Shown in pieces: positions 9,429 through 40,050 of a stretch of 41,485 nt of DNA. Both the position numbers and the translations under genes were made by a program. Origin of the DNA: Candidatus Omnitrophota bacterium (GTDB taxonomy: Bacteria; Omnitrophota; Gorgyraeia; 1-14-0-20-64-10). Position 1 is the stretch's first letter. Each line of letters begins with the position of its first letter. The notes under the pieces were generated by a model. It saw only the letters and a list, made by a program, of their open reading frames with translations. It was not told the origin of the DNA and made no database searches. The stretch is from positions 1 through 41,485 of the forward strand of contig JACOVG010000033.1 of assembly GCA_016177405.1 (NCBI GenBank), in the 5' to 3' direction.

Positions 9429-9713
9429 CTAGCGGAAGACGCTTCCGAGAAGGAGGACGAGGATTGCGAGCGTGATCAGGAAGAAGGGAAAGACCGCCAC
9501 CACCCACAGCGGGACGATCTTCTCGAACTTGAGGTGCATGTAGAAGAGGCTCACCAGCGCCGCCTTGACGAGCGCGATCAGCAGGATAAAAAGGATCACA
9601 CCCCGCCTGGAGAAGGGCAGAAGGGGAGACAGGGTCCCGGCCACCAGGAGAGCCACCAGCCACCCCCAGATGGCGAAATATTTCAAATAGGAAGGTTGCT
9701 GGGCGGGGGTCAT
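9429..9713 (-). CDS. ctaF: Cytochrome c oxidase subunit IV (CtaF/CoxD type)
   Basis: A 94-residue protein with three membrane helices. Family landmarks are YFAIWGWLVALL near the start, GVILFILLIALVKAALVSLFYMHLKFE in the middle and a hydrophobic last helix. The 'KAxLVxxFYMHL+xE' segment is the best mark of small subunit IV proteins of prokaryotic heme-copper oxidases. It starts in an ATGA overlap with ctaE. Its TAG stop is in the same frame as the following DUF420 gene, with only six codons between that stop and the proposed DUF420 start. Confidence 0.85.
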   Translation of the reverse strand: MTPAQQPSYLKYFAIWGWLVALLVAGTLSPLLPFSRRGVILFILLIALVKAALVSLFYMHLKFEKIVPLWVVAVFPFFLITLAILVLLLGSVFR

Positions 9714-10291
9714 ATGAGGTAGAGAAGCGGAAAGAGGAAGATCCAGACCAGGTCCACGAAATGCCAGTAAAGACCCGAGATCTCCACGAGGTGCCCCCGC
9801 CTTTCGGAGAAATCCTGCCCGAGGGTGAGCCGGAGGATCCAGAGGTTGGCGATGACCCCGCCCAAGACGTGCAGGCCGTGGAAGCCGGTCAGCATGAAGT
9901 AGCAATCCCAGAAGATCGCGGTTCCGGGGAAATGGCCGTGCGCGAACTTGACCGAGTACTCCCACCCCTTGACCCCCAGGAACGCGCTTCCCAGGAGAAT
10001 CGTGAGCGCGAGAAACAGCCGCAGTTTCTTCACGTCGGCCCGGTGCACCGCCGCCACCCCCATCGCCATGGTCATGGAGCTGGTCAGCAGGAGGAAGGTG
10101 TTGATGGCGGCCGCCGGAATGGAGAGCTCTTCCCCCAGATGGGGCCAGGAGCTCATCCCGGCCCTTAAGACGATGTAAGCCCCGATGAGGCCCGTGAAGA
10201 ACATCACCTCCGAGGCCAGGAAGAGCCACATCCCGAGCTTGGCGGAGGGAATGCCGGTCGTGGTGTCTTGGGCCTGCGCCAGGGTTGTCAT
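9710..10291 (-). CDS. ctaE: Cytochrome c oxidase subunit III
   Basis: A 193-residue membrane protein with about five helices. Landmarks are KLGMWLFLASEVMFFTGLI, INTFLLLTSSMTMAMGV, the short charged KKLRLFL, YFMLTGFHGLHVLGGV and a terminal SGLYWHFVDLVWIFLFPLLYL. Length and helix number match the shorter prokaryotic subunit III. It stabilises subunit I and proton uptake. ATGA overlaps join it to the ctaA-ctaB fusion before it and to subunit IV after it. Confidence 0.93.
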   Translation of the reverse strand: MTTLAQAQDTTTGIPSAKLGMWLFLASEVMFFTGLIGAYIVLRAGMSSWPHLGEELSIPAAAINTFLLLTSSMTMAMGVAAVHRADVKKLRLFLALTILLGSAFLGVKGWEYSVKFAHGHFPGTAIFWDCYFMLTGFHGLHVLGGVIANLWILRLTLGQDFSERRGHLVEISGLYWHFVDLVWIFLFPLLYLI

Positions 10292-13640: not shown

Positions 13641-14295
13641 TGGCTTTGGTTTCCACAAGCCATGCCTCAAAATCGCGCCGTGGTTGAACCGTCACCTGGC
13701 CCCGCATCCGGTAGTGCCCCAGACCGCACAGCTCGGCGCAGCGAATCTCGTACTGGCCCAGCTTGGTCGGGGTAAACCAAACCTGGGTGGTGAGCCCCGG
13801 CACGGCGTCCTGCTTGACGCGGAAATCGGCCACGAAGAAGGAATGGATCACATCCTTCGATTTGAGGCTCACCAGGGCCGGCCGGTTCACCGGCAGGTGA
13901 AGCTCGTTGATCGTCGTGATGTCGTCGGGCGTCTCCATCCGCTGATCCGGGCCGGGGTAGCGGATGTTCCAGGCGAACTGCTCGGCCAATACCTCCACAT
14001 GGAGGGCGTCCTTGGGCATCCGCCGGGGGGATCGGATCTCGCTCCAGACCTTTTGCGAGGCGATGGTGAGCACCAGCAGGATCAGGGCGGGGACGACCGT
14101 CCAGATCACCTCCAGGCCGGTGTGACCGTGGACGTAAGAGGCCTTTCTCCCCGCCCGGCTGCGGTACTTGAGGACGAAGAACAGCAGTCCCGCCTGGACC
14201 AGGAGGAAGAAGAAGCCGGTGATCCAGAAGATCGCCCAGAAGAGGCGGTCGATCTCCCCGCCGAAGCTGGAGGCGCTTTCCGGAAAGAAACCCAT
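13633..14295 (-). CDS. ctaC: Cytochrome c oxidase subunit II (CuA, no cytochrome c domain)
   Basis: A 220-residue protein with two N-terminal membrane helices (about 17-42 and 62-82), then a periplasmic cupredoxin domain. CuA ligands are in DVIHSFFV and CAELCGLGHYRMRG (C-x3-C-x3-H-x2-M). EQFAWNIRYPG is the aromatic patch used for electron entry from cytochrome c. It lacks any CxxCH, so unlike caa3 enzymes it has no fused cytochrome c; the diheme cytochrome and cupredoxin genes upstream are candidate donors. The start ATG shares one base with the preceding stop (TGATG). Confidence 0.94.
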   Translation of the reverse strand: MGFFPESASSFGGEIDRLFWAIFWITGFFFLLVQAGLLFFVLKYRSRAGRKASYVHGHTGLEVIWTVVPALILLVLTIASQKVWSEIRSPRRMPKDALHVEVLAEQFAWNIRYPGPDQRMETPDDITTINELHLPVNRPALVSLKSKDVIHSFFVADFRVKQDAVPGLTTQVWFTPTKLGQYEIRCAELCGLGHYRMRGQVTVQPRRDFEAWLVETKANE

Positions 14296-15002
14296 CAAAA
14301 GGTGAAGGCGATCTCCTTGCTTTCACCATCCGCCACCGTGACCGACTGGCTTTTGGCGCCGAACTTCTCGTGCCAGGCCTCGAGGGTGTAGGTGCCGGCG
14401 GGCAAGCCCTTCAGCGCGAAGGAGCCGTTTTCGTCCGTGACCCCGAAGAAGGGGTGCTCCACCGCGTGCCCGAAGGCCGCCATCCAGGGGTGCACGTTGC
14501 ACTTAAAGGGAATGGCCATCTCCGGCTTGTCGAAGATCTTGACCGTCTTCATGCCCTTGACCGGCTGGGCGATGTTGAATTTCTTGTTCACCTTGGGCTG
14601 GGCGTTCACGTTGTGGAGGGTGGAGTCGCTGTTTTGGATTGAAAGCGGCTGGCCCACCTGGACGCCGAAGACGTGAGGAGTATACAGGCACCCTCCCTGG
14701 TCCAGGACGACGGCTTCCTTGGGGGCGGGGTAGGCGCCGGGCTGGACGCCATCCTTCACATAGACAAACACATGGCGCAAGGTCCCGTTCGGATTGACCA
14801 CGACCTCCTCGGAAGAGACCGCGCCGGTGTGCTGCTGCTGGCAGACCGGGTCGGCCGACATCTTGATCTTGGCGGCCGCGGGGGCCGCGGAGGAGAGCTT
14901 CACGCTTCCCTTGATAACTGCCGTGCCGCCGGCGTAGCCGCCGGACGCCGTTACCAAAAAGGTGAGGATACCCAGCGTGCTTGTTAAAACTTTGCGTCGC
15001 AT
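14295..15002 (-). CDS. Exported cupredoxin-like protein (methylamine-utilisation/plastocyanin-like)
   Basis: A 235-residue protein with a signal peptide (MRRKVLTSTLGILTFLVTASGGYAGG). The copper-site pattern is the His in STLHNVNA plus FKCNVHPWM, giving Cys, His and Met as in type I copper proteins. The C-terminal FGVTDENGSFALKGLPAGTYTLEAWH is a carboxypeptidase-regulatory-like beta-sandwich. AAGGAG precedes ATG 15002. Directly before ctaC, it may carry electrons to the oxidase or help deliver copper to CuA; both are inference. Confidence 0.8.
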   Translation of the reverse strand: MRRKVLTSTLGILTFLVTASGGYAGGTAVIKGSVKLSSAAPAAAKIKMSADPVCQQQHTGAVSSEEVVVNPNGTLRHVFVYVKDGVQPGAYPAPKEAVVLDQGGCLYTPHVFGVQVGQPLSIQNSDSTLHNVNAQPKVNKKFNIAQPVKGMKTVKIFDKPEMAIPFKCNVHPWMAAFGHAVEHPFFGVTDENGSFALKGLPAGTYTLEAWHEKFGAKSQSVTVADGESKEIAFTF

Positions 15003-15021
15003 CTTTTTCTCCTTCAGCTTG

Positions 15022-16341
15022 TCATTTTAAGACCAGATCCACCCAATTCGAATTGGCCCGGTGCCGGTCCGTCTCCCCATTCCCGCCATCCCAGACGGCA
15101 ATCCCAAGAAGAATGGGGCGGCCTTCCGGGGTCAAGCCGACGCCTCCGGCCGGGCTTAGGGGGCGGCTCACGACCAACTCCCATCGGCCATCGGCAAAGG
15201 CGGCCTTGCCAGAGGTGCCCTCGGCCGACCAAGCGAGCTGCTCCAGGGACGGCGCGTCAGAACTGGCCGGCCAGCTTCGAAGCGAACCGATTTGAAACTT
15301 CGCGCGCCGGTCAGGGATAAGGAAGAGGGACGCGCGGTCGGCGGGTTCGGTGTCGTTTCGGCTTGGGTCATGCCAAGCCAGCCGGAACGCGATCTCCTTA
15401 TCATTATACAGCGCCTTGACCATAACCGCGGTGACGGCGGCCGGCAAGACCTTGCCCTCCCGATAGAGGCCGCTGGCCAGCCTCAAGTCGGCGCGCGGGG
15501 CGCTGTCCCAGCGGGCATCGGAAGGATCACCCGGAAGCTCCCCTTCCACCCGGACCGCCTCGATTGCTCTGGCCCAGCGGGGTTTCTCCTGGATCGAGCG
15601 GACGTAATAAGCCATCTGCCAGGCATCTTCTTTTGAAACGGCATCCACGTAAGAGGGCATCGGCGTGCCGTCAATCCCGGCCAGCAGGCGAGCCACTACG
15701 TCGCCTGCCGAGGAGCCGGCCCGGTAGCTGTAGCCGTGCGTGAGATCGGCGGCCCGGATCGGCAAACCCCAATTGTCCACCAGGGTGGCAGCGGAAGGGC
15801 CGTCTCCACGGCCATGGGTTCCATGGCAGGCCACACAGCCCAGTTGGGCAAAGAGCTCCTTGCCCTTTTCAAGGTTGGCTCCCTTCGATCCAGGGTCGGT
15901 TCCCAGATGAATCGGCTCGGGCCGGGTCTCTTCGAAGACCTTGGAGAGGGATTTCACGTGGTAGACCAACTGCCAGCGGGTCTCCTCGGGCAGGCGCTGA
16001 AAGTCCGGCATCCGGCTGCCGGGCAGGCCGGTGGAGAGCGTCCGAAAGAGGTCTTCGTCGGTCGGGGGAGTGCCGCTGGCCGTCGTTCGGAACTTGAAGA
16101 TCCCCTCGGCCAGGTTGCGGGGCTTGGGCTCCATCCGTTTGGCGTCGGGCCCATCGCCTGCCCCGGCGGGCCCATGACAGCGGGCGCACGACTCCTGGTA
16201 GACCACCTCGCCCAGCTTCGGGTCGGGGGCGGGCCTTGGGGAAACGTCGGGTTTGGCCAGGGCAAGGGTCAAGCCCCAGCAGAGGAAAAGGGCTGCCGCG
16301 CAAGTCCCCGCGAGCGTTTTTAAGGAAGGCTGGGAAATCAT
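15022..16341 (-). CDS. Diheme cytochrome c with ethylbenzene-dehydrogenase-type heme b domain
   Basis: A 439-residue protein. The signal peptide covers about residues 1-29. A first cytochrome c domain (about 40-135) has CARCH and the likely ligand Met in GSRMPDF. A second (about 155-255) has CVACH and the Met in GTPMPSY. The C-terminal 180 residues resemble the EB_dh/gamma-subunit domain that binds heme b by Met and Lys (WDSAPRADLRLASG...KALYNDKEIAFRLAWHD). It opens the oxidase operon with its own promoter, and is a likely periplasmic electron donor to CuA. No molybdopterin dehydrogenase gene is adjacent, so the EB_dh part may serve another partner. Confidence 0.85.
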   Translation of the reverse strand: MISQPSLKTLAGTCAAALFLCWGLTLALAKPDVSPRPAPDPKLGEVVYQESCARCHGPAGAGDGPDAKRMEPKPRNLAEGIFKFRTTASGTPPTDEDLFRTLSTGLPGSRMPDFQRLPEETRWQLVYHVKSLSKVFEETRPEPIHLGTDPGSKGANLEKGKELFAQLGCVACHGTHGRGDGPSAATLVDNWGLPIRAADLTHGYSYRAGSSAGDVVARLLAGIDGTPMPSYVDAVSKEDAWQMAYYVRSIQEKPRWARAIEAVRVEGELPGDPSDARWDSAPRADLRLASGLYREGKVLPAAVTAVMVKALYNDKEIAFRLAWHDPSRNDTEPADRASLFLIPDRRAKFQIGSLRSWPASSDAPSLEQLAWSAEGTSGKAAFADGRWELVVSRPLSPAGGVGLTPEGRPILLGIAVWDGGNGETDRHRANSNWVDLVLK

Positions 16342-29425: not shown

Positions 29426-29893
29426 TTAGCGGCCCAGCGCTTTTTGCACCGCCCGCGCCACATTCCCCAAACAGCAGGAGCCCTGGGGGTTGGTCACCTC
29501 GCAGGAGCAGTTTCCGGCCTTGACCTGGGCCTTGATCTGTTCGATGACGGTGCTCTTGCCGGTCGCCTGAATCTCCGCGCGGATCTTCTCCGGCGTCCAG
29601 CCAAAGCAGTAGCAGGCCGGCACGGCGGGATTGTTCGGCTCTTTGGCTGTGACGGGAACGCTTAAGTCCGCCTTCCGAAAAAGTGCCTCGTTCGGCCGAA
29701 AGTAGACCACGTCACAGCTCGGAGTTCGGCAGAAACAAAACTCCTTGCCCGGGGGAATCCGATGACGCTGGTCCGGCTTGATGAGCGACCCCAGCGTGAT
29801 TCGCGCAACCGGCTTGCCCAGGGCCGCGCAGGTCGGACATTTTGCCGGTCCGCAGGTGACAGGCGGGTGCAGCTCGCAGCAGGCCTCGCTCAT
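29426..29893 (-). CDS. CopZ-like iron-sulfur cluster-binding metallochaperone
   Basis: A 155-residue, Cys-rich protein. The N-terminal zinc/FeS domain (about 1-95) has CCELH, CGPAKCPTCAALGKPV and FCFCRTPSCDVVYF, as in the extra domain of Archaeoglobus CopZ. The C-terminal BFD-like [2Fe-2S] domain (about 105-155) has ACYCFGWTPEKIRAEI, NCSCEV and GSCCLGNV. Such proteins are thought to couple redox to metal delivery. It is the last gene of a mer-like operon and overlaps merT by ATGA, so it probably handles the same metal in the cytosol. Mercury versus copper cannot be settled from sequence. Confidence 0.85.
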   Translation of the reverse strand: MSEACCELHPPVTCGPAKCPTCAALGKPVARITLGSLIKPDQRHRIPPGKEFCFCRTPSCDVVYFRPNEALFRKADLSVPVTAKEPNNPAVPACYCFGWTPEKIRAEIQATGKSTVIEQIKAQVKAGNCSCEVTNPQGSCCLGNVARAVQKALGR

Positions 29894-30240
29894 GGCGGCC
29901 TCTGGCAGGAGACGGCGCAGGCGGCCTTAGCCGCCAGCGGCCCCAGGTGCATGAGGGCAAAGCCAGCCACGACGACCGAGGCGACCGAAAGGATCACCAG
30001 AGCGCCCGCCCCGCCAGGCATCCGGCATTGCGTTGCCTGGCAGCGTTTGGCCTGGGCGAGATACTGCCGCCACCCCAGCCCCAGCAGTACGGCGGCCGCG
30101 GCCACCAGGAGCCACGAGAAGCGGGCGAAGAAAACTCCCGCCCCAAGCCCGCCTAAGCCCGCGGCCGCGAGGGCCGCGGGCCCCAGGCAGCAGGCCGAAG
30201 CGGCGAGGGCCGAACCGATCCCCAACTTCACCGCGTTCAT
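29890..30240 (-). CDS. merT: MerT-like metal-ion transporter
   Basis: A 116-residue protein with about three or four membrane helices. The first helix has the vicinal pair in SALAASACCLGPAALAA, the hallmark of MerT, which passes Hg(II) across the inner membrane. The loop KRCQATQCRM supplies a second Cys pair. A C-terminal helix is followed by CAVSCQRPP. There is no periplasmic MerP gene; the small CPECGACPEV protein lies in its place. It overlaps the metallochaperone gene by four bases. Confidence 0.83.
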   Translation of the reverse strand: MNAVKLGIGSALAASACCLGPAALAAAGLGGLGAGVFFARFSWLLVAAAAVLLGLGWRQYLAQAKRCQATQCRMPGGAGALVILSVASVVVAGFALMHLGPLAAKAACAVSCQRPP

Positions 30241-30246
30241 GGCGGC

Positions 30247-30432
30247 CTAGATCTTCTTCAGTTCGCCGGTCTGGATCTTCTCGACCAGGGTGTTCCAGGC
30301 CTCCCGGTTCAGCTTGACCAGGTTGCCCGCCTCGCCGATCGCCACCTCTGCCTTGGCGGCCTCGACCACAACCTCCGGACAGGCCCCGCATTCCGGGCAG
30401 AGGTTTACCCTCTGAATGGCACTTTCTTTCAT
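30247..30432 (-). CDS. Small CPxCGxCP protein of the mer-like operon
   Basis: A 61-residue soluble protein. Its only cysteines are in NLCPECGACPEVVVEAA (residues about 12-18), a C-x2-C-x2-C cluster that could bind a soft metal. The rest is a compact helix/strand domain (EVAIGEAGNLVKLNREAWNTLVEKIQTGE). AGGAGG lies before ATG 30432, which overlaps the MerR stop by ATGA. A role as metal carrier between regulator, transporter and metallochaperone is inferred from the operon only. I do not know a named family. Confidence 0.7.
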   Translation of the reverse strand: MKESAIQRVNLCPECGACPEVVVEAAKAEVAIGEAGNLVKLNREAWNTLVEKIQTGELKKI

Positions 30433-30878
30433 CGTTTGGCCCTCCTATTTGTTTTTGGCGCCTTAACCGACTCGATCTGTGGGCAGATGGCATAGCTGCC
30501 CTGTCTTGCCGCCTTTGGACTCACCCATTGGCGCAGCCGTTCCTTCAGCCGGTCCCGGGTGGCGGTGAGCTCCGCGATTTTTCCCTCGAACTCCGCGATC
30601 TTCCTGTTGAAAAGCCGCCGGACATGATCGCAGCAGGGCGTAAGGCCCTGGCGGCCTTGGCGCATGATGCCCCGGATCTCCTTTAAGGTCAGGCCAAATC
30701 GCTTGGCCTGCTGGATGAAGCGAAGCCTCTCCACGTCCCGCCCCGAGTAGACCCGGTAGCCGGAGGGCCGCCGGCCAGAGGGGGAAAGCAGCCCCTCCAG
30801 CTCGTAGTACCGGATGGTCCGGATGGAAACCCCGGTCTGCCGGCTCACCTCACCGATCAACAAGTCATCCTTGGCCAT
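30429..30878 (-). CDS. MerR-family heavy-metal-responsive regulator
   Basis: A 149-residue regulator. The winged helix-turn-helix is IGEVSRQTGVSIRTIRYYELEGLL, followed by RPSGYRVYSGRDVERLRFI. A long dimerisation helix follows (about 84-118). Metal-binding candidates are Cys82, Cys83 (LTPCCDHV) and Cys132 (AICPQIE); MerR itself uses three cysteines in comparable places. ATG 30878 with GGAGGG just upstream is chosen over a TTG at 30890. It is the first gene of the operon it probably controls, through the promoter at 30896-30927. Confidence 0.88.
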   Translation of the reverse strand: MAKDDLLIGEVSRQTGVSIRTIRYYELEGLLSPSGRRPSGYRVYSGRDVERLRFIQQAKRFGLTLKEIRGIMRQGRQGLTPCCDHVRRLFNRKIAEFEGKIAELTATRDRLKERLRQWVSPKAARQGSYAICPQIESVKAPKTNRRAKR

Positions 30879-30895
30879 AGGTCCCTCCAAATGAA

Positions 30896-30927
30896 AGCAT
30901 ACACCCTCTAGTCTACTGGAGAGTCAA
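30896..30927 (-). promoter_or_regulatory. MerR-type promoter/operator with 20-bp spacer
   Basis: On the minus strand TTGACT (30927-30922), a 20-base spacer, TATGCT (30901-30896). The overlong spacer holds a dyad, CTCTAGT / ACTGGAG on the plus strand (6 of 7 matching), as at MerR/CueR/ZntR-activated promoters. Transcription would start near 30888. Confidence 0.7.
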
Positions 30928-30978
30928 GGGGAATCTTGAAGGCCTTTTGGCCGGTGGTATGATGAGGCAAGAGAGCGC

Positions 30979-31007
30979 GAATCCTTTAACCATGCCGACG
31001 CATCTTA
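30979..31007 (+). promoter_or_regulatory. ECF-type promoter, copy 1 (sigma gene itself)
   Basis: GAATCCTTT (30979-30987) and GCATCTTA (31000-31007), with 22 bases between the G of the first and the C of CATCTTA. The same pair occurs at 32857-32885 and 33539-33568. The sigma gene's ATG at 31012 falls close to the expected transcript start. Confidence 0.6.
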
Positions 31008-31011
31008 TCTC

Positions 31012-31614
31012 ATGGAGATAACCAGCTTGCAGGGGGCCTCGGACGCCGATCTCCTGCGGCAGATCTGCAGGCAGGATGAATCTGCCCTGGAGGAGATTCT
31101 TCGCCGCTACCAGGGAAAGATCTACGGCCTAAGTCTCCGGATGCTGCGGAATTCTCACGATGCCGAAGAGGTGCTGCAGGAGGTGGCCCTGGTAATCTTT
31201 CAAAAGGCGGGGACCTTCCGGGGCGAGGCGAAGGTCGGCAGTTGGATCTATCGGGTGACGGCCAACGCGTGTTTCATGCGGCTGCGGCGGCGGCCCAAGG
31301 TGAAGGAGATCCCGCTTACGGAGGAGCTGGGGCCGGCCATGAATGAAGAGGGGATGGTTACCGAGCCCGTGGCGGACTGGTCCAGCATCCCTCGCGACGA
31401 GCTGGAGCGTAAGGAGCTGGCGGATCGGATTAACGCGGCGCTGGGGGAGCTGCCGCCGGAGTATCGAACCGTGGTTGTGCTGCGGGACGTGGAGGGGCTT
31501 TCCGCGGAGGAAACCCGGGAGATCCTGAACCTCTCCCTTCCGGCGCTCAAATCCAGGCTCCACCGGGCCCGGCTGTTCTTAAGAAAGAGGCTTGCAGATG
31601 TTCAGATGCCGTGA
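31012..31614 (+). CDS. ECF-family RNA polymerase sigma factor (second system)
   Basis: A 200-residue sigma factor. Region 2 (about 15-90) has [40 protein letters not shown] and [21 protein letters not shown]. Region 4 (about 140-195) has [20 protein letters not shown] and the helix-turn-helix [23 protein letters not shown]. No Shine-Dalgarno precedes ATG 31012, which lies right after a promoter-like motif, so the transcript may be leaderless and self-activated. It overlaps the zinc-finger anti-sigma gene. Its likely targets are the DUF1059 gene and the patatin operon downstream. Confidence 0.93.
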
Positions 31615-31828
31615 CGTAGGAAGGCTCCTGTACGAGTACGTCGAGGGGCTGCTCGATCCCGCCGATCGGCAGGCCATCGAGGAGCATCTCAAGGACTGCC
31701 CTTCCTGCCTGGCATTCCTGAAGACCTACCGGGAAACGATCCGCTTGGCCGGAGGGTTGCGCGAGGAAGAGATCCCGCTGGAGATAACGCGGCGCTTAAA
31801 AACCTTCCTGGGGAGGCGCCATGTCTGA
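31598..31828 (+). CDS. Zinc-finger (ZAS-type) anti-sigma factor
   Basis: A 76-residue protein beginning [17 protein letters not shown] and carrying the anti-sigma zinc motif H-x3-C-x2-C ([10 protein letters not shown]) within [20 protein letters not shown]. Residues up to about 60 form the anti-sigma fold; there is no membrane helix, so it is a soluble redox- or zinc-sensing type. AGAAAGAGG at 31582-31590 selects ATG 31598, inside the sigma gene. Its own 3' end overlaps galT by 8 bases. It probably holds the upstream ECF factor inactive. Confidence 0.85.
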
Positions 31829-32843
31829 ACTTAGGCAGAACCTGGCCACCCGGGAGTGGGTCATCATCGCCACCGAACGGGCCTCCAAGCCGATGGATTT
31901 TGCCAACCCCGCGGCAAAGGCGCCTGTCGCCGAACGGGAGGCCAACTGCCCCTTTTGTCCGGTCCATGAGGCGATCACCGGGCCAGAGCTCTTTGCCGTT
32001 CGGCCCGAGGGGGGCAGGCCAGATACTCCAAGCTGGCGGCTGCGGGTGGTACCCAATAAATTCCCGGCGTTGACGCCCTCTCCCACCTGCGCCATCCTGC
32101 CGCAGCGGCTCAAGGAGGGTCCCTACCTGCGGATGGACGGCTGCGGGCACCACGAGGTGATCGTGGAGCACCCCCGCCACGACCAGACGCTGGCCGGCAT
32201 GACGGTGGAGGAGGTCCGGCTGATCTTGGAGTCCTACTGGCACAGGCACCATCAGCTGGCGTCCGACTGCAACAATCACCTGATGACGATCTTTAGAAAT
32301 TATGGGGAGAAGGCAGGCGCCTCCCTGCGGCATCCCCATTCCCAACTGATCACCACCGGGATCGTTCCGCTTCATATCCGCACACGGCTCTACGAGGCCC
32401 AGCGCTATTTCGACGATGTGGGAACCTGCGCCTACTGCGATATCCTCCGGCACGAGATGAAGAGCAAGGAACGGCTTATTCTGGAAAACGACGGCTACGC
32501 GGTTTTCGCCCCTTACGCCTCCGGAACTCCCTACGAAATGTGGGTGATGCCCAAAAGACACCGGGCCTCGTTTGGCGATCTTCCCCAAGAGGAGCTTGGG
32601 GCCTGGGCCGAAGCGCTCCAGGGGGCGCTCGCGCGGCTGGCCAAGCTTTTGAATGACCCCGATTACAATTACGTCCTCCAGACCTCCCCCTATCCCCTGG
32701 CGGCGGTCCCCTTCTACCACTGGCACCTGGTGATCATCCCGCACTTGAAGACCAAGCGGGCCGGTTTTGAGATCGGCTCCGGGATCAGCATCAACATCGT
32801 CTCTCCCGAGGCCGCCGCCCGCGCCCTGCGGGAGACCCTCTAA
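31821..32843 (+). CDS. galT: Galactose-1-phosphate uridylyltransferase family (HIT superfamily)
   Basis: A 340-residue GalT-like enzyme. Zinc ligands are CPFC near residue 40 and CAYC near 210. The active-site histidine lies in LRHPHSQLI (His171, His173), where the usual HPHGQ Gly is Ser. [11 protein letters not shown] closes the second HIT repeat. It transfers UMP between UDP-glucose and hexose-1-phosphate. The length fits bacterial GalT. It is translationally coupled to the anti-sigma gene, which places a sugar-nucleotide step in the ECF regulon; a different nucleotidyl substrate (DUF4921-like relatives, ADP-sugar enzymes) is possible. Confidence 0.85.
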
Positions 32844-32856
32844 TCTCCGCCCTCGC

Positions 32857-32885
32857 GAATCCTTTTTGCCCTCCCGGCATCTTAA
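32857..32885 (+). promoter_or_regulatory. ECF-type promoter, copy 2 (DUF1059 gene)
   Basis: GAATCCTTT (32857-32865) and CCGGCATCTTAA (32874-32885), 21 bases between the G and the C of CATCTTA. It shares the 12-base block CCGGCATCTTAA exactly with copy 3. AGGAGG precedes the ATG at 32909. Confidence 0.6.
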
Positions 32886-32908
32886 CCATTGAAGAGGAGG
32901 AATAGACC

Positions 32909-33127
32909 ATGAGCAAGGTGTTGAGATGCCGCGATGTTGGGACCGACTGCGGGTTTGAAGCGCGCGGGGAGACGGCCGAAGAGATCCTCAAGAAGGTTTC
33001 AGAGCATGCGCGCAAAGCGCACGGGTTCGCCAGTTTTCCTCCGGATCTGATTGCCAGATTTCAAGCGGCTATCCGGGAGGAGGAAAAAGGTTCGTGTGGG
33101 ACGGCGCCCTCTTGCGGGTGCCGCTAG
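32909..33127 (+). CDS. DUF1059 small protein
   Basis: A 72-residue protein. The DUF1059 core is LRCRDVGTDCGFEARGETAEEILKKVSEHARKAHG, with Cys7 and Cys14 placed as in the family and a following His. The tail GSCGTAPSCGCR adds three more cysteines, unusual for the short family and suggestive of metal or redox binding. AGAGGAGG selects ATG 32909. It has its own ECF-type promoter and probably shares its transcript with the small protein at 33188. Family function is unknown. Confidence 0.85.
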   Translation: MSKVLRCRDVGTDCGFEARGETAEEILKKVSEHARKAHGFASFPPDLIARFQAAIREEEKGSCGTAPSCGCR

Positions 33128-33187
33128 GCAAGAGGGTTGATTTTTTCAGGCAGAGGTGAATCGTCGTTGAAAACCGTGGAGGAAGCG

Positions 33188-33454
33188 ATGCAGAAGATGC
33201 GACAAGCGTTGGTTTTGGCGTTGGCGATCGGATGGGGGATTGTCCAACCTTCGATTCTCTTAGCGGCAGAGCATGGGGGCAAGGAACATGGCGGGACAGC
33301 TTCGACAGCGGCTAGCCATGAAGGAAGTCATGGGATGGAAATGAATGAGGCAGCCCTCCTGAAGGAAGCCGCCGCGGCTTTGCGCAAGGGGCAGAGCCGG
33401 CCGGATCTGGCGGAGAAACTGGAGAAATTGGCGAAAAGCCACGCCTCTCGTTAA
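33188..33454 (+). CDS. Small exported His-rich protein
   Basis: An 88-residue protein. The signal peptide covers about residues 1-27 (MRQALVLALAIGWG..ILLAA). EHGGKEHGGTASTAASHEG and SHGMEMN follow, then a helical tail (ALLKEAAAALRKGQSRPDLAEKLEKLAKSH). GGAGG at 33178-33182 selects ATG 33188 rather than earlier in-frame starts. The EHGGKEHGG string is shared with the small membrane protein at 26448-26639. The His/Met/Glu-rich stretch suggests a periplasmic metal-binding protein. Function unknown. Confidence 0.72.
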   Translation: MQKMRQALVLALAIGWGIVQPSILLAAEHGGKEHGGTASTAASHEGSHGMEMNEAALLKEAAAALRKGQSRPDLAEKLEKLAKSHASR

Positions 33455-33480
33455 AAGCGGCGGTTTTCATGTGTACGGGC

Positions 33481-33515
33481 GGTCCCCCCGGACCGCAGAC
33501 GCGTCCGGGGGGACC
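33481..33515. terminator. Strong GC hairpin, possible terminator
   Basis: GGTCCCCCCGGAC (33481-33493) pairs perfectly with GTCCGGGGGGACC (33503-33515) around a 9-base loop. No T-run follows, so factor-independent termination is not assured; it lies between the small exported gene and the third ECF-type promoter. Confidence 0.5.
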
Positions 33516-33538
33516 CTCACTTCCGTTGTGTCTACGGG

Positions 33539-33568
33539 GAATCTTTCCTGAGGCTGCCGGCATCTTAA
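33539..33568 (+). promoter_or_regulatory. ECF-type promoter, copy 3 (patatin operon)
   Basis: GAATCTTT (33539-33546) and CCGGCATCTTAA (33557-33568), 22 bases between the G and the C of CATCTTA. Placed after a hairpin and about 30 bases before the patatin ATG at 33600, which has GGGAGGGGG upstream. Confidence 0.6.
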
Positions 33569-33599: not shown

Positions 33600-34421
33600 A
33601 TGAGGAATGCGCTGTTACTGGGTGGGGGCGGAAGCCGAGGAGCCATTGAGGCCGGCTTCTATAAAGCCCTCTTTGAGATGGGCGCTCCCGTGGACATGAT
33701 CTTCGGGACATCGGTCGGGGCCTTAAACGGCGCCTTCATCGCGGCCGGCTTCGCGCCGGAACAGCTCGAAGCGATCTGGAACCAGTTGGAGGAAGAGCGA
33801 TTGTTCCGTCGCGATTGGAGCTTCTTGTGGAAGTGGGGGAGGGCCGATGGTCTCTATCAAGCGGATGGGCTGATCGACTTTTTGAAATCCACCCTTCCGG
33901 TCAAGAGGTTTGAACAGCTCAAAGTCCCCTTGGTTGTCACTGCCACGGACCTCACGACCTCCGAGCCAGTTTATCTGGACTCGGGGGAGTTGTTGCCCGC
34001 TCTGTTGGCCAGCGCCGCCATGCCGCCGTACCTGCCGCCTGTAGCGCATCAGGGCCGCCATCTCGTGGATGGGGGGTTTGTGGCGAACGTCCCGATTGGA
34101 GAGGCGATTGCCCGCGGAGCCCAGTGCGTTCTGGCGATGCTCTGCCATTGCGCCGGGGAGCTGATTCAGGTACCCCGGGGCTTTTTGGAAGTCCAGGGGC
34201 GCGCTCTGCGGATCGCCCTGGAGCAGAAATTCCGCCATGATCTGGAGCATTACAAAGACAAAGCCCGAATGATCGTGCTGGAACCCTGCTTTGATTTCCC
34301 CCTGGCCATGCTGAAGATCCAGCAGACCTCATTGCTGATCGAGCAGGGGTATCAATTCGCCAAAACCGAACTTTTACGCCGCATGCCTGACCACTTCCAA
34401 GATCATCCGGGGGGTGAGTGA
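33600..34421 (+). CDS. Patatin-like phospholipase / acyl hydrolase
   Basis: A 273-residue single-domain patatin. The oxyanion loop is GGGGSRGA (8-15), the nucleophile elbow GTSVG (Ser38), and the catalytic Asp157 is in LVDGGF, completing the Ser-Asp dyad. SAAMPPYLPPV is the usual substrate-pocket segment. There is no signal peptide, so it probably acts on inner-leaflet phospholipids or acyl chains. It is the first gene after the third ECF-type promoter. Its stop overlaps the next small ORF (TGATG). Confidence 0.9.
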   Translation: MRNALLLGGGGSRGAIEAGFYKALFEMGAPVDMIFGTSVGALNGAFIAAGFAPEQLEAIWNQLEEERLFRRDWSFLWKWGRADGLYQADGLIDFLKSTLPVKRFEQLKVPLVVTATDLTTSEPVYLDSGELLPALLASAAMPPYLPPVAHQGRHLVDGGFVANVPIGEAIARGAQCVLAMLCHCAGELIQVPRGFLEVQGRALRIALEQKFRHDLEHYKDKARMIVLEPCFDFPLAMLKIQQTSLLIEQGYQFAKTELLRRMPDHFQDHPGGE

Positions 34422-34594
34422 TGCGAGTAGAATGGTTGACGCTGTTGGTCCCGATTCTGGCGGCGGGATTGATCTGGGTACTGATGAGGAACCCAGGCCG
34501 CCGGGCTTGCGGAGGATGGAACTTGAGCGATGGACTTCGGTGTTGGCGGGAATGGCTCCGGTGTCGGTTCCGCGGTGGCGGGGATCGGTGTTGA
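34421..34594 (+). CDS. Small membrane protein (57 aa), putative
   Basis: An ORF starting in a TGATG overlap with the patatin stop. It has one predicted membrane helix (WLTLLVPILAAGLIWVLM, about residues 5-22) and a basic, Trp- and Cys-rich tail (RRACGGW, RCWREWLRCRF, RC). GGGGTGAG lies just upstream. It fills a gap that otherwise would need an odd, non-family N-terminal extension on the DUF547 gene. Whether it is really translated is open. The four cysteines and the radical SAM gene downstream make it tempting as a modified peptide; nothing in the sequence proves this. Confidence 0.45.
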   Translation: MRVEWLTLLVPILAAGLIWVLMRNPGRRACGGWNLSDGLRCWREWLRCRFRGGGDRC

Positions 34595-35418
34595 AGGGGC
34601 CTGGGACTCTTCTCGGGACCGCTGGGCTGATCCTGTCGGCTTTGGCCGCCGGCTGGGCGGCTCCTCTGGGATTCAGCCATGACCTCTACGATCGCGTCCT
34701 GAAAGAGCATGTTGTTGACGGACGGGTGGATTACGCCCGGCTTCAGGCGAATCGCGAGGGCCTGGATCGTTACGTCGCCTCGCTCGCCGAGCTTCAGCCC
34801 CGCGTCTACGGGACGTGGAATGAGCCGACCAAGATTGCTTTCTGGATCAACGCCTACAACGCCATCACCCTGAAGGTGGTCCTGGACCATTACCCGATCC
34901 GGAGGGGCCTTTCTCCGGCAGGCCTGGCTTTCCCGGCTAACAGCATCCGGCAGATCCCGGGGGTTTGGGACCGAATCACCCATCCGGTGATGGGCAGGCC
35001 GACGACTCTCGATGCGATCGAGCATGAGATCCTTCGCGGGCAGTTCCGGGAGCCCCGGATCCACATGGCCCTGGTCTGCGCGGCCAAGGGGTGCCCCCCG
35101 CTTCGTGCCGAGGCCTACGAGGGGAAGCACCTGAACGCGCAGCTTGACGATCAGACGAGCCGGTTCCTGGCCAGCCCCGCGAAATTCCGGATGGACCGGA
35201 AGCAGGGAGTGGTCTGGCTGTCGCCCATCTTCCAGTGGTTTGGCGATGATTTTCTGAAGGCCTTCGGCGTTCCTGAAGGATTCGAGGACCACGCCGGGTC
35301 CGAACGGGCGATTCTGGCGTTCGTCAGCCGATACGTGAAATCGGAAGATCAATCTTTTCTGAAAACGGAGAATTACCGGGTGGCCTACTTGGGATACGAC
35401 TGGAGTCTCAACGAATGA
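34588..35418 (+). CDS. DUF547-family exported protein
   Basis: A 276-residue protein with a signal peptide (KGPGTLLGTAGLILSALAAGWA). The DUF547 hallmarks are NEPTKIAFWINAYNAITLK, THPVMGRPTTLDAIEHEILR, HMALVCAAKGCPPLRAEAY, VWLSPIFQWFGDDF and a C-terminal YLGYDWSLNE. GTG 34588 is chosen because it leaves a normal signal peptide and a 7-base overlap with the small ORF; the frame stays open back to 34414 (ATG 34516 and 34552 are alternatives). DUF547 proteins recur near thioredoxin-like and radical SAM genes; their activity is unknown. It overlaps the next gene by ATGA. Confidence 0.85.
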   Translation: MLKGPGTLLGTAGLILSALAAGWAAPLGFSHDLYDRVLKEHVVDGRVDYARLQANREGLDRYVASLAELQPRVYGTWNEPTKIAFWINAYNAITLKVVLDHYPIRRGLSPAGLAFPANSIRQIPGVWDRITHPVMGRPTTLDAIEHEILRGQFREPRIHMALVCAAKGCPPLRAEAYEGKHLNAQLDDQTSRFLASPAKFRMDRKQGVVWLSPIFQWFGDDFLKAFGVPEGFEDHAGSERAILAFVSRYVKSEDQSFLKTENYRVAYLGYDWSLNE

Positions 35419-36872
35419 CTTGGCCCCTTGCGATTGGCGGGTTAGCCATTTTGGCGGTCTCCGTGGGGTTTTCTTTCTTAAGCCGTTTCTTTATCTTTGG
35501 AGCGGGATACCTTGAGCGGCCTCTCCTTCCATTCGTCGCGTTGTTCGGGACGGGTTCCGCGGCGCTTCTGTGGGTTTTTCGGAGCGTCTCATCCCGAAGG
35601 CCTCAATTCAAAGGTGTCCACTGGAGACTGGCATGGATTCTCACCGTTTCTTTCCTGGCGAGGGGAGTTCTGTTTTCTTCCAACCCCATTCAGGAAACCG
35701 ATCCGTACCGGTACCTCTGGGACGGCAACGCGGTCCTTCATGGGGCCAACCCGTACCTTCATCCACCGGATGAAGCATACTCGGCGCCTGCGGCTTCTCC
35801 ATCCCTTGAGAGATGGCAGGCCTCGATCAGAACCGATGCCGCCCGGCAAGTCCACAGGCGCGTCAACCACCCCGGGATCCGAACGGTGTATCCTCCCCTG
35901 GCTCAAGGTCTGTTCGCCCTGGCGCAGGGGTTGACCCCGTGGTCTCTGGGGGGGTGGAGATTCCTGGTCTTTTTGGCGGACCTGGCCAATCTGGCGCTGA
36001 TCCTCGCGATCCTTTCCAGAGCACGCCTTCCTCTGGAGTGGGCCCTCCTGTATGGCTGGTCCCCGCTGATCCTGAAGGAGTTCGGCAACTCGCTCCACGT
36101 GGACGCGTTTGTGGTGCTGGGACTCCTGCTGATGATCCTGGCTCTCCAGTCCGGGCGGATCCGGTTGTCATTCCTGGCTCTCGCGTCGGCAGGATTGATG
36201 AAGCTGGCGCCGCTTCTTTTGATGGCGCCCCTGGCGGGTTGGGCCTTTAAGCGGTCTCGGAGACAAACCATCCAGGGACTGGCTGTCGCCGGCGCTTTGA
36301 TGGCGATGGCCTACCTGCCGTTTTTCTCCGCGGGGCCGGTTCTTTGGGATGGATTGGGCCACTTTGCGGGACGGTGGCGGGTTAACGAGGGACTCTATGG
36401 GGGGCTGGCCTGGATCATTTCCCAGCTTGGATTTGAAGCGGCTTGGACAGAGTGGGTGGCGCGAGGGACGGCAGGGGCGATTTTGCTGTTGGTTACTCTG
36501 GGGATTGTCCGGTGGGTCCGGCAGGATTCGGGAGATCTCCATCGGTTATGGGCAGCCATGCTGGCTCTGCTGGTTTGCTTCTTCCTGCTCCTTCCGATGG
36601 CCAACCCCTGGTACTTCACCTGGGTTATTCCTTTTCTTGTGTTGGTTCCGGTCCGGGCGCTGATCTGGCTTTCCGGGGTCTTGGGGTTATACTACCTGGA
36701 TTTTTACTTCATGTATCGGGGCAACCCTGAAGGATTTGGCTGGGTTCGCCTGGCGGAGTATGGATCTGTGGCAATGGCGGCGGCTTGGGAGTTCTGGCAA
36801 TGGCGAAAATCTCGATCATCCTGCCGGTTTTCAACGAGCGCGATCTCATTGAGCGTGCCCTCACGCATCTGA
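35415..36872 (+). CDS. GT-C-fold membrane glycosyltransferase (GT87/DUF2029-like)
   Basis: A 485-residue protein with about twelve membrane helices. The first large outer loop has IQETDPYRYLWDGNAVLHGANPY, the Asp-containing motif of polyprenol-phosphate-sugar-dependent GT-C enzymes, then IRTVYPPLAQGLFALA and LLYGWSPLILKEFGNSLHVD, all typical of GT87-like mannosyltransferases. It would move a sugar from a lipid carrier to an envelope acceptor. Its 3' end runs 73 bases into the GT2 gene. The last 20 residues (RSSCRFSTSAISLSVPSRI) look like out-of-frame reading of that gene rather than conserved protein. Confidence 0.82.
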   Translation: MTWPLAIGGLAILAVSVGFSFLSRFFIFGAGYLERPLLPFVALFGTGSAALLWVFRSVSSRRPQFKGVHWRLAWILTVSFLARGVLFSSNPIQETDPYRYLWDGNAVLHGANPYLHPPDEAYSAPAASPSLERWQASIRTDAARQVHRRVNHPGIRTVYPPLAQGLFALAQGLTPWSLGGWRFLVFLADLANLALILAILSRARLPLEWALLYGWSPLILKEFGNSLHVDAFVVLGLLLMILALQSGRIRLSFLALASAGLMKLAPLLLMAPLAGWAFKRSRRQTIQGLAVAGALMAMAYLPFFSAGPVLWDGLGHFAGRWRVNEGLYGGLAWIISQLGFEAAWTEWVARGTAGAILLLVTLGIVRWVRQDSGDLHRLWAAMLALLVCFFLLLPMANPWYFTWVIPFLVLVPVRALIWLSGVLGLYYLDFYFMYRGNPEGFGWVRLAEYGSVAMAAAWEFWQWRKSRSSCRFSTSAISLSVPSRI

Positions 36873-37636
36873 CCGGTCTCGTGCCGAACGAGTTGCTGGT
36901 GGTCGACGGCGGCTCGCGGGATGGGACCGATCGGGTGGCTCGGGCGTATCCCGGCGTGTCGCTCCTCCGGGCGGCGCGTGGCCGGGCCCATCAGATAAAC
37001 GCTGGCGCCCACGCCTCCGCGGGAGAGATACTGTTGTTTGCTCATGCCGACATGGCGTTTCCCCGCGATGCGATCGAGAGGATCCAAAGCGTCATTGGAA
37101 ATGGATCTGTGGGCGGCTGTTTCTTCAAACGGTACGAACCTGACAGCCCGCTCTTGCGATGGTACGCGTGGGGGCTGAATCATCTGTTCCTGGCCGGGAT
37201 GCGCCGGATGGTGGGAACCAACGGCCTCTTCGTCCGCCGGGATTGCTTCCTGACACTGGGAGGATTCCCGGAAGTGCCGATTCTGGAGGACCTGATCTTT
37301 GCCGACCGGCTGTGCCTCTGCGGGCGGCTGGGGGTCGTTCGGGAGCCGGTGATCGTTTCCGCGCGCCGGTACAGGAAGGCCGGCACGTTAAAGCAAGTTC
37401 TGATCAACGGCCGGATCCTTTTTGCTTACGATTTCCTGCATCAGTCGCCGGACCAATTGCAAAGCCTTTATGGACAACGCGCGTCAAAAGGAAAGGGGAA
37501 AGATGATGAAACGGTGGATTGGGCTGATGGTTGTTGTGGCAGCTCTTCTGGGTTTTTCGGGAGTCGGGCCTTACGCGCAGACTCCGAAAGCCGGGAAGTA
37601 CCTGGTCATCTTGCAGGCCGGCAAGGAAACCCATGA
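36800..37636 (+). CDS. Family 2 glycosyltransferase (TIGR04283-like)
   Basis: A GT-A-fold transferase beginning MAKISIILPVFNERDLIERAL. The nucleotide-sugar region is ELLVVDGGSRDGTDRVA, then RGRAHQINAGAHASAGEILLFAHADM with the metal DxD-like end. GTNGLFVRRDCFLTLGGFPEVPILEDLIF follows. These fit the TIGR04283 group often named for arsenosugar clusters; no arsenic methyltransferase is seen here, so the name should not be taken as function. The conserved protein ends near residue 228, but no stop occurs until 37636, giving a 134-base overlap with the next gene and a non-conserved tail (GKGKDDETVDWADGCCG...). ATG 36800 lies inside the GT-C gene. Confidence 0.83.
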   Translation: MAKISIILPVFNERDLIERALTHLTGLVPNELLVVDGGSRDGTDRVARAYPGVSLLRAARGRAHQINAGAHASAGEILLFAHADMAFPRDAIERIQSVIGNGSVGGCFFKRYEPDSPLLRWYAWGLNHLFLAGMRRMVGTNGLFVRRDCFLTLGGFPEVPILEDLIFADRLCLCGRLGVVREPVIVSARRYRKAGTLKQVLINGRILFAYDFLHQSPDQLQSLYGQRASKGKGKDDETVDWADGCCGSSSGFFGSRALRADSESREVPGHLAGRQGNP

Positions 37637-37958
37637 GGGGATGGCGCGGGCCGTTCACGCCTTTCTGTACGCGCGGGAGCTCAAGGAGCACGGCCATGAG
37701 GTTCGGCTCGTCTTCGACGGGGCAGGCACCGAGTGGGCGGAGGAGTTAAGTAATCCGGCATCCGAGTCGAAGATCAAGCCGATGTACGACGAGTTCAAAA
37801 GGCAGGGAATCTCGGAGGTCATCTGCGACTTCTGCGCTGGGGCCTTTGGGGTGAAGGAGGAACTCGAGGGCCGTCAGTTGCCGTTGACGGCCGGCTATGA
37901 AGGGCATCCGAGCATCGCCCAGTGGGCCGACCAGGGTTACCAGATTGTGATTCTATGA
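37503..37958 (+). CDS. Exported DsrE/DsrF-like protein
   Basis: A 151-residue protein with a signal peptide (KRWIGLMVVVAALLGFSGVGPYAQ) and a DsrE-like domain. It has YLVILQAGKETHEGMARAVHAFLYARELKEHGHEVRLVFDG, then EVICDFCAGAFGVKEEL with the Cys pair near the usual sulfur-carrying position, and ends GHPSIAQWADQGYQIVIL. Most DsrE proteins are cytosolic sulfur carriers; an exported one is less common. AAAGGGGAAAG selects ATG 37503 (or 37506). It overlaps the preceding GT2 frame and, by ATGA, the following FAD oxidoreductase. Confidence 0.8.
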   Translation: MMKRWIGLMVVVAALLGFSGVGPYAQTPKAGKYLVILQAGKETHEGMARAVHAFLYARELKEHGHEVRLVFDGAGTEWAEELSNPASESKIKPMYDEFKRQGISEVICDFCAGAFGVKEELEGRQLPLTAGYEGHPSIAQWADQGYQIVIL

Positions 37959-39475
37959 GGATTACCGTACCGCCCATGGACGAGCACAACCAGGCCTTGG
38001 CGGCCAACGTTCATCCCTCCGATTGGGTGAATCCCAAGCCGGAGGGCCGGTACAACCTCGTCGTGGTGGGGGCAGGCCCGGCCGGATTGGTTGCGGCTGC
38101 CGGAGCGGCTGGCCTGGGGGCCAAGGTCGCCCTGGTGGAGAAGCACCTGCTGGGCGGGGATTGCCTGAACGTCGGCTGCGTTCCCTCCAAGACGCTGATC
38201 CGCTCCTCGCGGGCGGCGGCCGAGGTCCTGCAGGCGAGCCGGTTCGGCGTCCATATCCCCGCAGGGGCAGAGGTTGATTTCCCGGCTGTGATGGAGCGGT
38301 TGCGCCGGCTCCGAGCCCGCATCAGCGCGCACGATTCGGCCAAACACCTCGCGGCCCAGGGGATAGACCTCTTTTTTGGGGAGCCCCGATTTACAGGATC
38401 GGATCGGCTCGAGGTCGCCGGGGCGAGTTTGCGGTTCGCGCGCGCCGTCATTGCCACCGGGGCCCGCGCCGTCTCGCTGCCGATCCCTGGATTGAAGGAG
38501 GCCGGGTATCTCACGAACGAAACGGTGTTTGAGCTCACCGAAAGGCCCAAGCGGTTGGCCTGCATTGGGGCAGGGCCGATCGGCTGTGAGCTGTCCCAGG
38601 CCTTCCGGCGGCTGGGGAGCGAGGTGTTTCTGTTCGACGCCGCGCCGCATGTCCTGATCCGGGAGGACGCGGATGCCGCCCAGATTCTCCAAAAGGTTTT
38701 TCTTGAAGAAGGAATCCATCTCGTTTTGGAGGGCCAAATCCAGCGCGTCGAAAACCAAGGTTTGGAGAAGATCATTCATTATTCCGCGAGGGGGAAGGAA
38801 GACGCTGTCGCGGTCGATCAGATCCTGGTGGGGGTGGGGCGGGCGCCCAACGTGGAGGGGCTGAATCTCGAAGCGGCCGGTGTGGCGTACGACACCAAGC
38901 TCGGCGTCCGCGTGAACGATCGCCTTCAAACGACCAACTCCAAAATTTACGCCGCCGGCGACGTCTGCATGGCGTATAAGTTCACCCACGCCGCCGACGC
39001 GGCCGCCAGGATCGTGATCGAAAACGCCCTCTTTGGCGGCCGAAAGAGGGCGAGCGCTCTGGTCATCCCCTGGTGCACCTACACCGACCCGGAGATCGCC
39101 CATGTGGGGATGTATGAGAAGGACGCGGCAAAGGCGGGAATCCCCGTGGCGACCTTGGTGAAGCGGTTAAGCGACGTGGACCGGGCGGTGGCCGATGGCG
39201 AGGAGGAGGGATTCGTCAAGATCCACGTCCGTCGGGGAACCGATCAGATTCTTGGAGCGACGATCGTGGCCCGCCACGCCGGAGAGATGATAGGCGAAAT
39301 CATCCTGGCGATCACGCATAAGGTTGGGCTTGGGAAGATCGCAAGCGCCATTCATCCCTACCCGACGCAGGCCGAGGCGATCCGGCAACTGGGGGATGCC
39401 TGCAACGCCGCGCGGCTGACCCCTGGCTTAAAGAGATTACTGACCTGGTGGCTGGCGTGGCGGCGCCGCGCATGA
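37955..39475 (+). CDS. FAD-dependent pyridine nucleotide-disulfide oxidoreductase (mercuric reductase-like)
   Basis: A 506-residue flavoprotein. An N-terminal extension of about 32 residues precedes the FAD motif NLVVVGAGPAGLVAAAGAAG. The redox-active disulfide is GGDCLNVGCVPSK (Cys70, Cys75), the NAD(P) site CIGAGPIGCELSQAFRRLG, the second FAD site IYAAGDVCMAYKFTHAADAAA, and the dimerisation/base His is in AIHPYPTQAEAIRQL. It lacks the heavy-metal domain and the C-terminal Cys pair of MerA, so true mercury reduction is doubtful. It may recycle a dithiol of the DsrE-like or DUF547 partners. It overlaps both neighbours by ATGA. Confidence 0.9.
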   Translation: MRITVPPMDEHNQALAANVHPSDWVNPKPEGRYNLVVVGAGPAGLVAAAGAAGLGAKVALVEKHLLGGDCLNVGCVPSKTLIRSSRAAAEVLQASRFGVHIPAGAEVDFPAVMERLRRLRARISAHDSAKHLAAQGIDLFFGEPRFTGSDRLEVAGASLRFARAVIATGARAVSLPIPGLKEAGYLTNETVFELTERPKRLACIGAGPIGCELSQAFRRLGSEVFLFDAAPHVLIREDADAAQILQKVFLEEGIHLVLEGQIQRVENQGLEKIIHYSARGKEDAVAVDQILVGVGRAPNVEGLNLEAAGVAYDTKLGVRVNDRLQTTNSKIYAAGDVCMAYKFTHAADAAARIVIENALFGGRKRASALVIPWCTYTDPEIAHVGMYEKDAAKAGIPVATLVKRLSDVDRAVADGEEEGFVKIHVRRGTDQILGATIVARHAGEMIGEIILAITHKVGLGKIASAIHPYPTQAEAIRQLGDACNAARLTPGLKRLLTWWLAWRRRA

Positions 39476-40050
39476 CCCTCCCCACGCCGGATACCCTTCG
39501 CCTTTGGATAAGCCAATTTGGAGTGATGGCCCCCTTCCTCTATGTGGCCCTCTATGCGGCCAACACCGTCACCCTGCTGCCTCCCATTGGAATCCTGTCC
39601 CTTAGCGCGGGGCTTGCCTTTGGGCCGGCGATCGGATTTCTCGCCATCATGGCAGGGGCGATGATTGGGACGTCACTGACGTTTCTGCTTGGCCGCCGGC
39701 TGGGACGGGGGTTCGTTGAGCGCCGGTTGAAGGGAAGATTCAAATCGCTGGATGAGGCGCTTGAGCGAAACGGCTTTGCCACCGTTTTATTCTTCCGGAT
39801 CGTTCCAATCGTTCCCTATGAGGTTCTCAACTACGGCTCCGGGTTGTCCAAGATCCCCTTTAGGGACTATGGACTGGCCACCTTCTTGGGGCTCATCCCT
39901 GGGGCGGCGGTGGCCGCTTTTTTCGGGGATTCGCTCACCCAGCCGTTTTCTCCGAAGTTTATCGCTGCCATAGCAGCCATGGCGATGATGATCGCCATCC
40001 CCACCCTCTACTTGAGAGTGAGAAGGAAAACAGGCCATGGAACTGACTGA
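39472..40050 (+). CDS. TVP38/TMEM64 (VTT-domain) membrane protein
   Basis: A 192-residue membrane protein with about five helices. VTT signatures are LLPPIGILSLSAGLAFGPAIGF, GAMIGTSLTFLLGRRLGRGFVE and the conserved FFRIVPIVPYEVLNYGSGLSKI, followed by LGLIPGAAVAAFFGDSL. The wider family is linked to lipid scrambling or transport. ATG 39472 overlaps the oxidoreductase stop by ATGA, and its end overlaps the radical SAM gene by 14 bases. Pairing of a VTT protein with a mercuric-reductase-like flavoprotein is common; the reason is unknown. Confidence 0.9.
   Translation: MTLPTPDTLRLWISQFGVMAPFLYVALYAANTVTLLPPIGILSLSAGLAFGPAIGFLAIMAGAMIGTSLTFLLGRRLGRGFVERRLKGRFKSLDEALERNGFATVLFFRIVPIVPYEVLNYGSGLSKIPFRDYGLATFLGLIPGAAVAAFFGDSLTQPFSPKFIAAIAAMAMMIAIPTLYLRVRRKTGHGTD

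Follow-up and report, generated by a model that had tools for sequence, protein, structure and literature searches.

Which regulator reads three near-identical two-box sequences that lie ahead of a sigma factor gene and of two neighboring transcription units in a member of the Candidatus Omnitrophota? The Omnitrophota are a phylum virtually without cultured members, and its gene regulation is poorly known; neither promoters nor regulons are mentioned in a survey that covered 421 of its genomes (PMC10066038). A defined promoter motif, together with a sigma/anti-sigma pair and a short list of targets, can be tested in vitro or in a laboratory host without growing the organism. The window, meaning the whole stretch of 41,485 nucleotides that was analyzed, is part of a draft metagenome-assembled genome of a groundwater bacterium, and its features are on the forward (+) strand unless indicated otherwise. 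We propose, with a probability of nearly nine in ten, that the three sites act as promoters that are recognized by an autoregulated extracytoplasmic function (ECF) sigma factor (31012-31614), which is paired with a zinc-binding anti-sigma factor and serves a small, mainly local regulon; direct recognition of the promoters by this sigma factor is what we infer from sequence comparison.

Three promoter-like sites beside an ECF sigma factor gene

All three sites listed in a preliminary description of this DNA were recovered in the same places and on the + strand: P1 (30979-31007; GAATCCTTTAACCATGCCGACGCATCTTA), P2 (32857-32884; GAATCCTTTTTGCCCTCCCGGCATCTTA) and P3 (33539-33567; GAATCTTTCCTGAGGCTGCCGGCATCTTA), the putative ECF promoters of the sigma gene, the DUF1059 unit and the patatin operon, respectively. 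The -35 box of P1 is GAATCCTT (30979-30986) and its -10 box GCATCTTA (31000-31007). P2 has the same pair of boxes, and P3 combines the -35 box GAATCTTT with GCATCTTA, the copy as a whole being composed of GAATCTTTC-CTGAGGCTGCCG-GCATCTTA. The -35 motif GAATCYTTT given previously describes copies 1 and 2 but not copy 3, where GAATCTTTC breaks the rule at its last base, and the -35 core common to all copies is GAATCYTT. Similarly, the 12-mer reported for copies 2 and 3, CCGGCATCTTAA, is indeed common to both, but the spacing of 21-22 bases has to be revised: counted from one G to the other, GAATC and GCATC are 21, 20 and 21 bases apart. The sites are separated from their start codons (ATGs at 31012, 32909 and 33600) by 4, 24 and 32 bases, which alters the lower end of the earlier range of 5-32 bases and leaves the upper end as it was. 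The pattern GAATCYTTT-N10..15-GCATCTTA was observed twice, against an expectation of 0.00 from dinucleotide shuffles of the window.

The gene following P1 encodes a protein of 200 aa with the features of an ECF sigma factor: it comprises sigma-70 regions 2 and 4 only (Pfam Sigma70_r2 and Sigma70_r4_2, above cut-off; TIGR02937, 92.0 bits vs 42.9), its gene is overlapped by that of a zf-HC2 anti-sigma factor (31598-31828) in an arrangement conserved in all orthologous loci, and a conserved two-box promoter stands ahead of its own operon, here and in six relatives named below. The anti-sigma factor, a soluble protein of 76 aa with a weak match to RsiW (5wuq), carries a C-x26-H-x3-C-x2-C motif (C4, H31, C35 and C38 in the 76-aa numbering), which is invariant across 12 orthologues when the L039 row of the alignment, which is out of frame, is ignored. 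By eye, its hydrophobic stretches are all too short for a membrane helix, and an H-x3-C-x2-C motif without a transmembrane helix is the signature of class I soluble zinc-binding anti-sigma factors (RsrA/ChrR-like). The anti-sigma gene is in turn overlapped by a gene of the same operon for a galactose-1-phosphate uridylyltransferase-like (GalT-like) protein (31821-32843), the L046 orthologue of which is located immediately upstream of the sigma gene, with a motif-like site. Upstream of P1, a sigma-70-like promoter (TTGAAG-N16-TATGAT, with TG before the -10; 30936-30963) is probably the basal promoter of the sigma operon, and a TATGAT-like element is found upstream of the ECF site in L040, too.

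Divergent from the sigma gene, a MerR-type regulator heads an operon on the - strand (29426-30890) that also encodes a 61-aa protein, a MerT-like protein and a CopZ N-terminal-type iron-sulfur metallochaperone. A MerR-like dyad, ACCCTCTAGT-CT-ACTGGAGAGT, is located at 30903-30924, within the MerR gene's own promoter.

Distribution of the motif in the genome and among relatives

The whole genome (1,703,254 bases; 93% complete, so that distant sites could be missing) was scanned by pattern searches with reversed-pattern controls. GAATC-N13..20-CATCTTA has four matches and its reversed control none; three of the four are P1-P3, and the fourth (C17:48825) has a longer spacer. The wider pattern GAAYCNTT-N11..15-GCATCNNA adds a single match, C3:43520, within long open frames, and these scans found no site near any other ECF gene of the genome. 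Under the test proposed in the preliminary description, genomic matches ought to precede genes instead of falling at random, and this holds across the whole genome: the motif is rare and concentrated at the locus, a pattern that chance does not give.

The motif is present at the orthologous sigma/anti-sigma loci of all ten other Omnitrophota genomes that were compared (51-78% identity; mostly from groundwater), always on the sigma strand and in the form GAATCCTTTT-N~10-GCATCNTA. It precedes the sigma gene in G002, G003 and G010, the counterparts of P1, and in L045, L047 and L052, and it lies directly 3' of the anti-sigma gene in L043-L048 and L052. L043, L044, L046 and L048 lack a recognizable site directly before the sigma gene, two of these being contig ends. 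A near-identical counterpart of P3 stands ahead of the patatin orthologue of G003 (L041:16240), the counterpart of P2 in G002 ahead of a DUF1059-like remnant followed by patatin, and further copies precede DsrE in G003 and DsbD in L043 (G164). In G152, a site ahead of genes for a CDGSH iron-sulfur protein and a VTT-domain protein (C7:11084-11111; L146) is on a contig other than that of the sigma gene and is a possible trans target of the regulon. Moreover, in G028, whose sigma factor shares 43% identity, the same motif occurs before DUF302, TolC-like and RND efflux genes (L039:4288-6276), which could mean that the motif predates the Omnitrophota lineage under study. A variant, GTAACCTT-N12-GCATCCTA, follows the anti-sigma gene of L049 (binned as Rokubacteria); the 11 tested sequences of the sigma lineage, L049 included, form one clade (98/98). 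No convincing site was found at the homologues L050, L051 and L053 (39-44% identity).

An unsupervised k-mer count returned GAATCCTT as the commonest 8-mer, present in 12 of the 23 sigma/anti-sigma flanks (maximum in 200 shuffles, 4). An exact relaxed pattern matches 18 times within the orthologous loci (175 kb) and never in the 1.07 Mb that surround other ECF genes (70 control ECF loci). In a set of 384 genomes from the class, six of nine sigma carriers vs four of 375 others have the strict pattern, one of the four being G028 (Fisher p 4e-9, with no correction for relatedness; since the carriers share ancestry, Fisher p-values overstate independence). With a relaxed, wider pattern, all nine carriers and the distant G028 have a site, and the reversed control has none. 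The link between motif and sigma factor does not rest on p-values alone. The consensus of 24 sites is GAATCCTTTT, about 10 bases and GCATCNTA, and was refined on sites chosen with it, so that its invariance is partly due to selection. Scoring sites loosely (14 of 16 positions) gave an enrichment of only about 3.6 times, and the exact patterns were used instead. Of the matches inspected in genomes without the sigma factor, L133 lies within very long open frames and the others have no clear gene start behind them; such matches were taken as background because of these positions and their number.

Control of the sites by the 31012 sigma factor, which the preliminary description had deduced from proximity, gains support from these data: the motif follows sigma orthologues through Omnitrophota families, takes the same types of place (before sigma, after anti-sigma, before patatin, DsrE or DsbD) and does not occur near other ECF genes. 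We regard it as improbable that the sites are instead bound by another regulator, for example the divergent MerR-type protein (30429-30890), whose gene shares its divergent region with the sigma gene, or that they are promoters of another ECF factor, although the genome encodes at least one that is related (G000:C11:124, 38% identity). MerR-family operators are dyads between promoter elements, but the motif is no palindrome, and a MerR-like dyad separate from it is present upstream of the MerR gene; furthermore, the MerR family is found in few of the 12 loci (three members), whereas the motif is found in all Omnitrophota ones. Neither the other ECF genes of the genome nor the 70 control ECF loci have a site of this kind nearby. 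Coincidence, or duplication of a DNA segment as the 12-mer common to P2 and P3 might suggest, can be dismissed almost entirely, as the letters between and around the boxes differ among the copies and ten other genomes have such sites with spacers that are unrelated, so that the comparative data already contradict it.

The predicted circuit and its target genes

In the autoregulated circuit that we propose, the product of the next gene downstream, the cytoplasmic zinc-binding anti-sigma factor, would keep the sigma factor inactive, the basal supply of which would come from the sigma-70-like promoter immediately upstream. A signal that inactivates the anti-sigma factor would allow the sigma factor to bind GAATCYTT as its -35 and GCATCNTA as its -10 element, to amplify its own operon (sigma, anti-sigma, GalT-like) via P1 and to switch on the DUF1059 unit via P2 and the seven-gene patatin-to-VTT operon via P3.

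The putative target of P2 is a gene for a DUF1059 protein (32909-33127; PF06348, E 2.8e-20), preceded by a ribosome-binding-site-like GAGGAGG. Downstream of it follows a small His-rich protein with a signal-peptide-like N-terminus (33188-33454), which is also present in L040 and L041 and for which no Pfam family was found. A strong hairpin (33482-33514; -37.2 kcal/mol, z -3.9) without a U-tract occupies the interval between the DUF1059 unit and P3. It is conserved in G003 with a compensatory change (L041 homologue, -29.2) and is possibly a terminator or insulator; nothing in the window matched an RNA family of Rfam. The P3 operon consists of seven closely packed, mostly overlapping genes, beginning with a patatin-like phospholipase (33600-34421; PF01734). 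This is followed by a DUF547 protein (34414-35418; PF04784), whose gene overlaps both neighbors, and by a polytopic membrane protein without a Pfam match (35415-36872), which has homologues in L041, L045 and L047 and is probably a GT-C type glycosyltransferase. Next are a family 2 glycosyltransferase of the TIGR04283 type (36803-37636; 179.3 bits, cut-off 182), a DsrE-family protein (37470-37958), the G003 orthologue of which has its own copy of the motif, a MerA-like FAD/NAD(P)-disulfide oxidoreductase (37955-39475; NF004991, above cut-off) and, as the last gene, a VTT-domain membrane protein of the TVP38 type (39472-40050). The regulon would tie genes of unknown role (DUF1059, DUF547, DUF302 and the small His-rich protein) to one stress circuit. 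Text searches that paired arsenosugar with either DUF547 or TVP38 had no matches in the literature searched.

The position of P1 also bears on the sigma mRNA. Only 3-4 bases separate the -10 box from the annotated sigma ATG in the window, G002 and G003, which should place the start of transcription at or beside that codon; with P1 ending 4 bases short of it, the induced sigma mRNA of this clade is probably leaderless; the mRNA from the basal promoter would carry a leader. An alternative sigma start is TTG 31027. In five loci of the other clade (L043, L044, L045, L046 and L048), TAnnAT is followed after exactly 6 bases by the sigma ATG, which looks like a leaderless gene under a housekeeping promoter. 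Our more general suggestion is tentative and may well be wrong, namely that the sigma lineage of oxygen-respiring Omnitrophota relies on leaderless mRNAs, made from a housekeeping promoter at the start codon in one clade and from an ECF promoter in that of the window, where self-induction would switch from leadered to leaderless transcripts. Such a leader switch would, if true, couple the feedback loop to translation initiation.

Candidate signals and related systems

Autoregulated ECF factors with local regulons are of a well-known kind. The present system adds a member with a well-supported target motif, and its protein does not reach the cut-offs for the named subfamilies SigW, RpoE and RsrA; the motif string had no occurrence in the literature searched. 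In having a two-domain ECF sigma factor, an adjacent soluble anti-sigma factor with H-x3-C-x2-C and, as predicted here, autoregulation, the system resembles SigR-RsrA of Streptomyces and RpoE-ChrR of Rhodobacter. It differs in its target genes, in a promoter core, GAATC/GCATCNTA, that departs from the familiar GGAAC-type -35, and in sequences below the family cut-offs, the anti-sigma factor scoring 28.3 bits against the 62.5 of the RsrA equivalog TIGR03988. SigW-RsiW of Bacillus provides the closest solved structures of both sigma (5wuq, E 9.8e-33) and anti-sigma (E 0.0024). RsiW, however, is membrane-bound and cleaved by proteases, whereas the anti-sigma factor of the window is soluble and has 76 residues, and the sigma factor stays below the SigW equivalogs (122.9 vs 209 for NF007223; 115 vs 243.1 for TIGR02948). 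The rpoE gene of Escherichia coli has both promoters dependent on other sigma factors and self-dependent ones (PMC8103513), as predicted here for the sigma gene; in contrast, RseA is a membrane protein and the E. coli RpoE regulon is large and acts in trans, whereas the three sites here are all local.

The signal is most likely, at somewhat better than even odds, thiol oxidation or a thiophilic metal(loid), and the regulon is best read as one of thiol-redox and metal(loid)-type genes. Recurrent targets and neighbors include DsbD, TlpA-like proteins, a DUF255 thioredoxin, a MerA-like reductase, DsrE, CDGSH and SCO1/CusF. Haem-copper oxidase subunit I (COX1) was found in only 67 of the 384 genomes of the class, yet in nine of nine sigma carriers vs 58 of 375 others (p 9e-8 by genome, 0.002 by family). 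The sigma factor goes with oxygen respiration, a minority state in the class, and the presence of COX1 in all nine carriers makes a redox or metal signal likely, if inferred. The functions of the targets are mixed (patatin, DUF547, glycosyltransferases), which renders this reading of the signal less certain. A serious competitor, to which we give a probability of roughly one in three, is that the sites belong to the 31012 sigma factor but report envelope stress or nutrient state: patatin, the glycosyltransferases and the VTT protein act on lipids and the envelope, the closest solved relatives are RsiW and SigW, and zinc is structural in some anti-sigma factors, e.g. RsiW (PMC7406223). Against this, the anti-sigma factor is short, soluble and devoid of a membrane segment, the recurrent neighbors and targets are thiol-redox or metal proteins, and the carriers are oxygen respirers.

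Two further features of these loci were observed. The window encodes cytochrome c oxidase subunits I and III and a cytochrome c on the - strand (9710-16341), the mark of an oxygen-respiring member of the class. In two relatives, the sigma gene is immediately preceded by tyrosine-integrase-like and excisionase-like genes, named from their sequence by eye (L041:7712-9196, L040:222-431), which suggests that mobile elements have integrated beside the sigma locus there.
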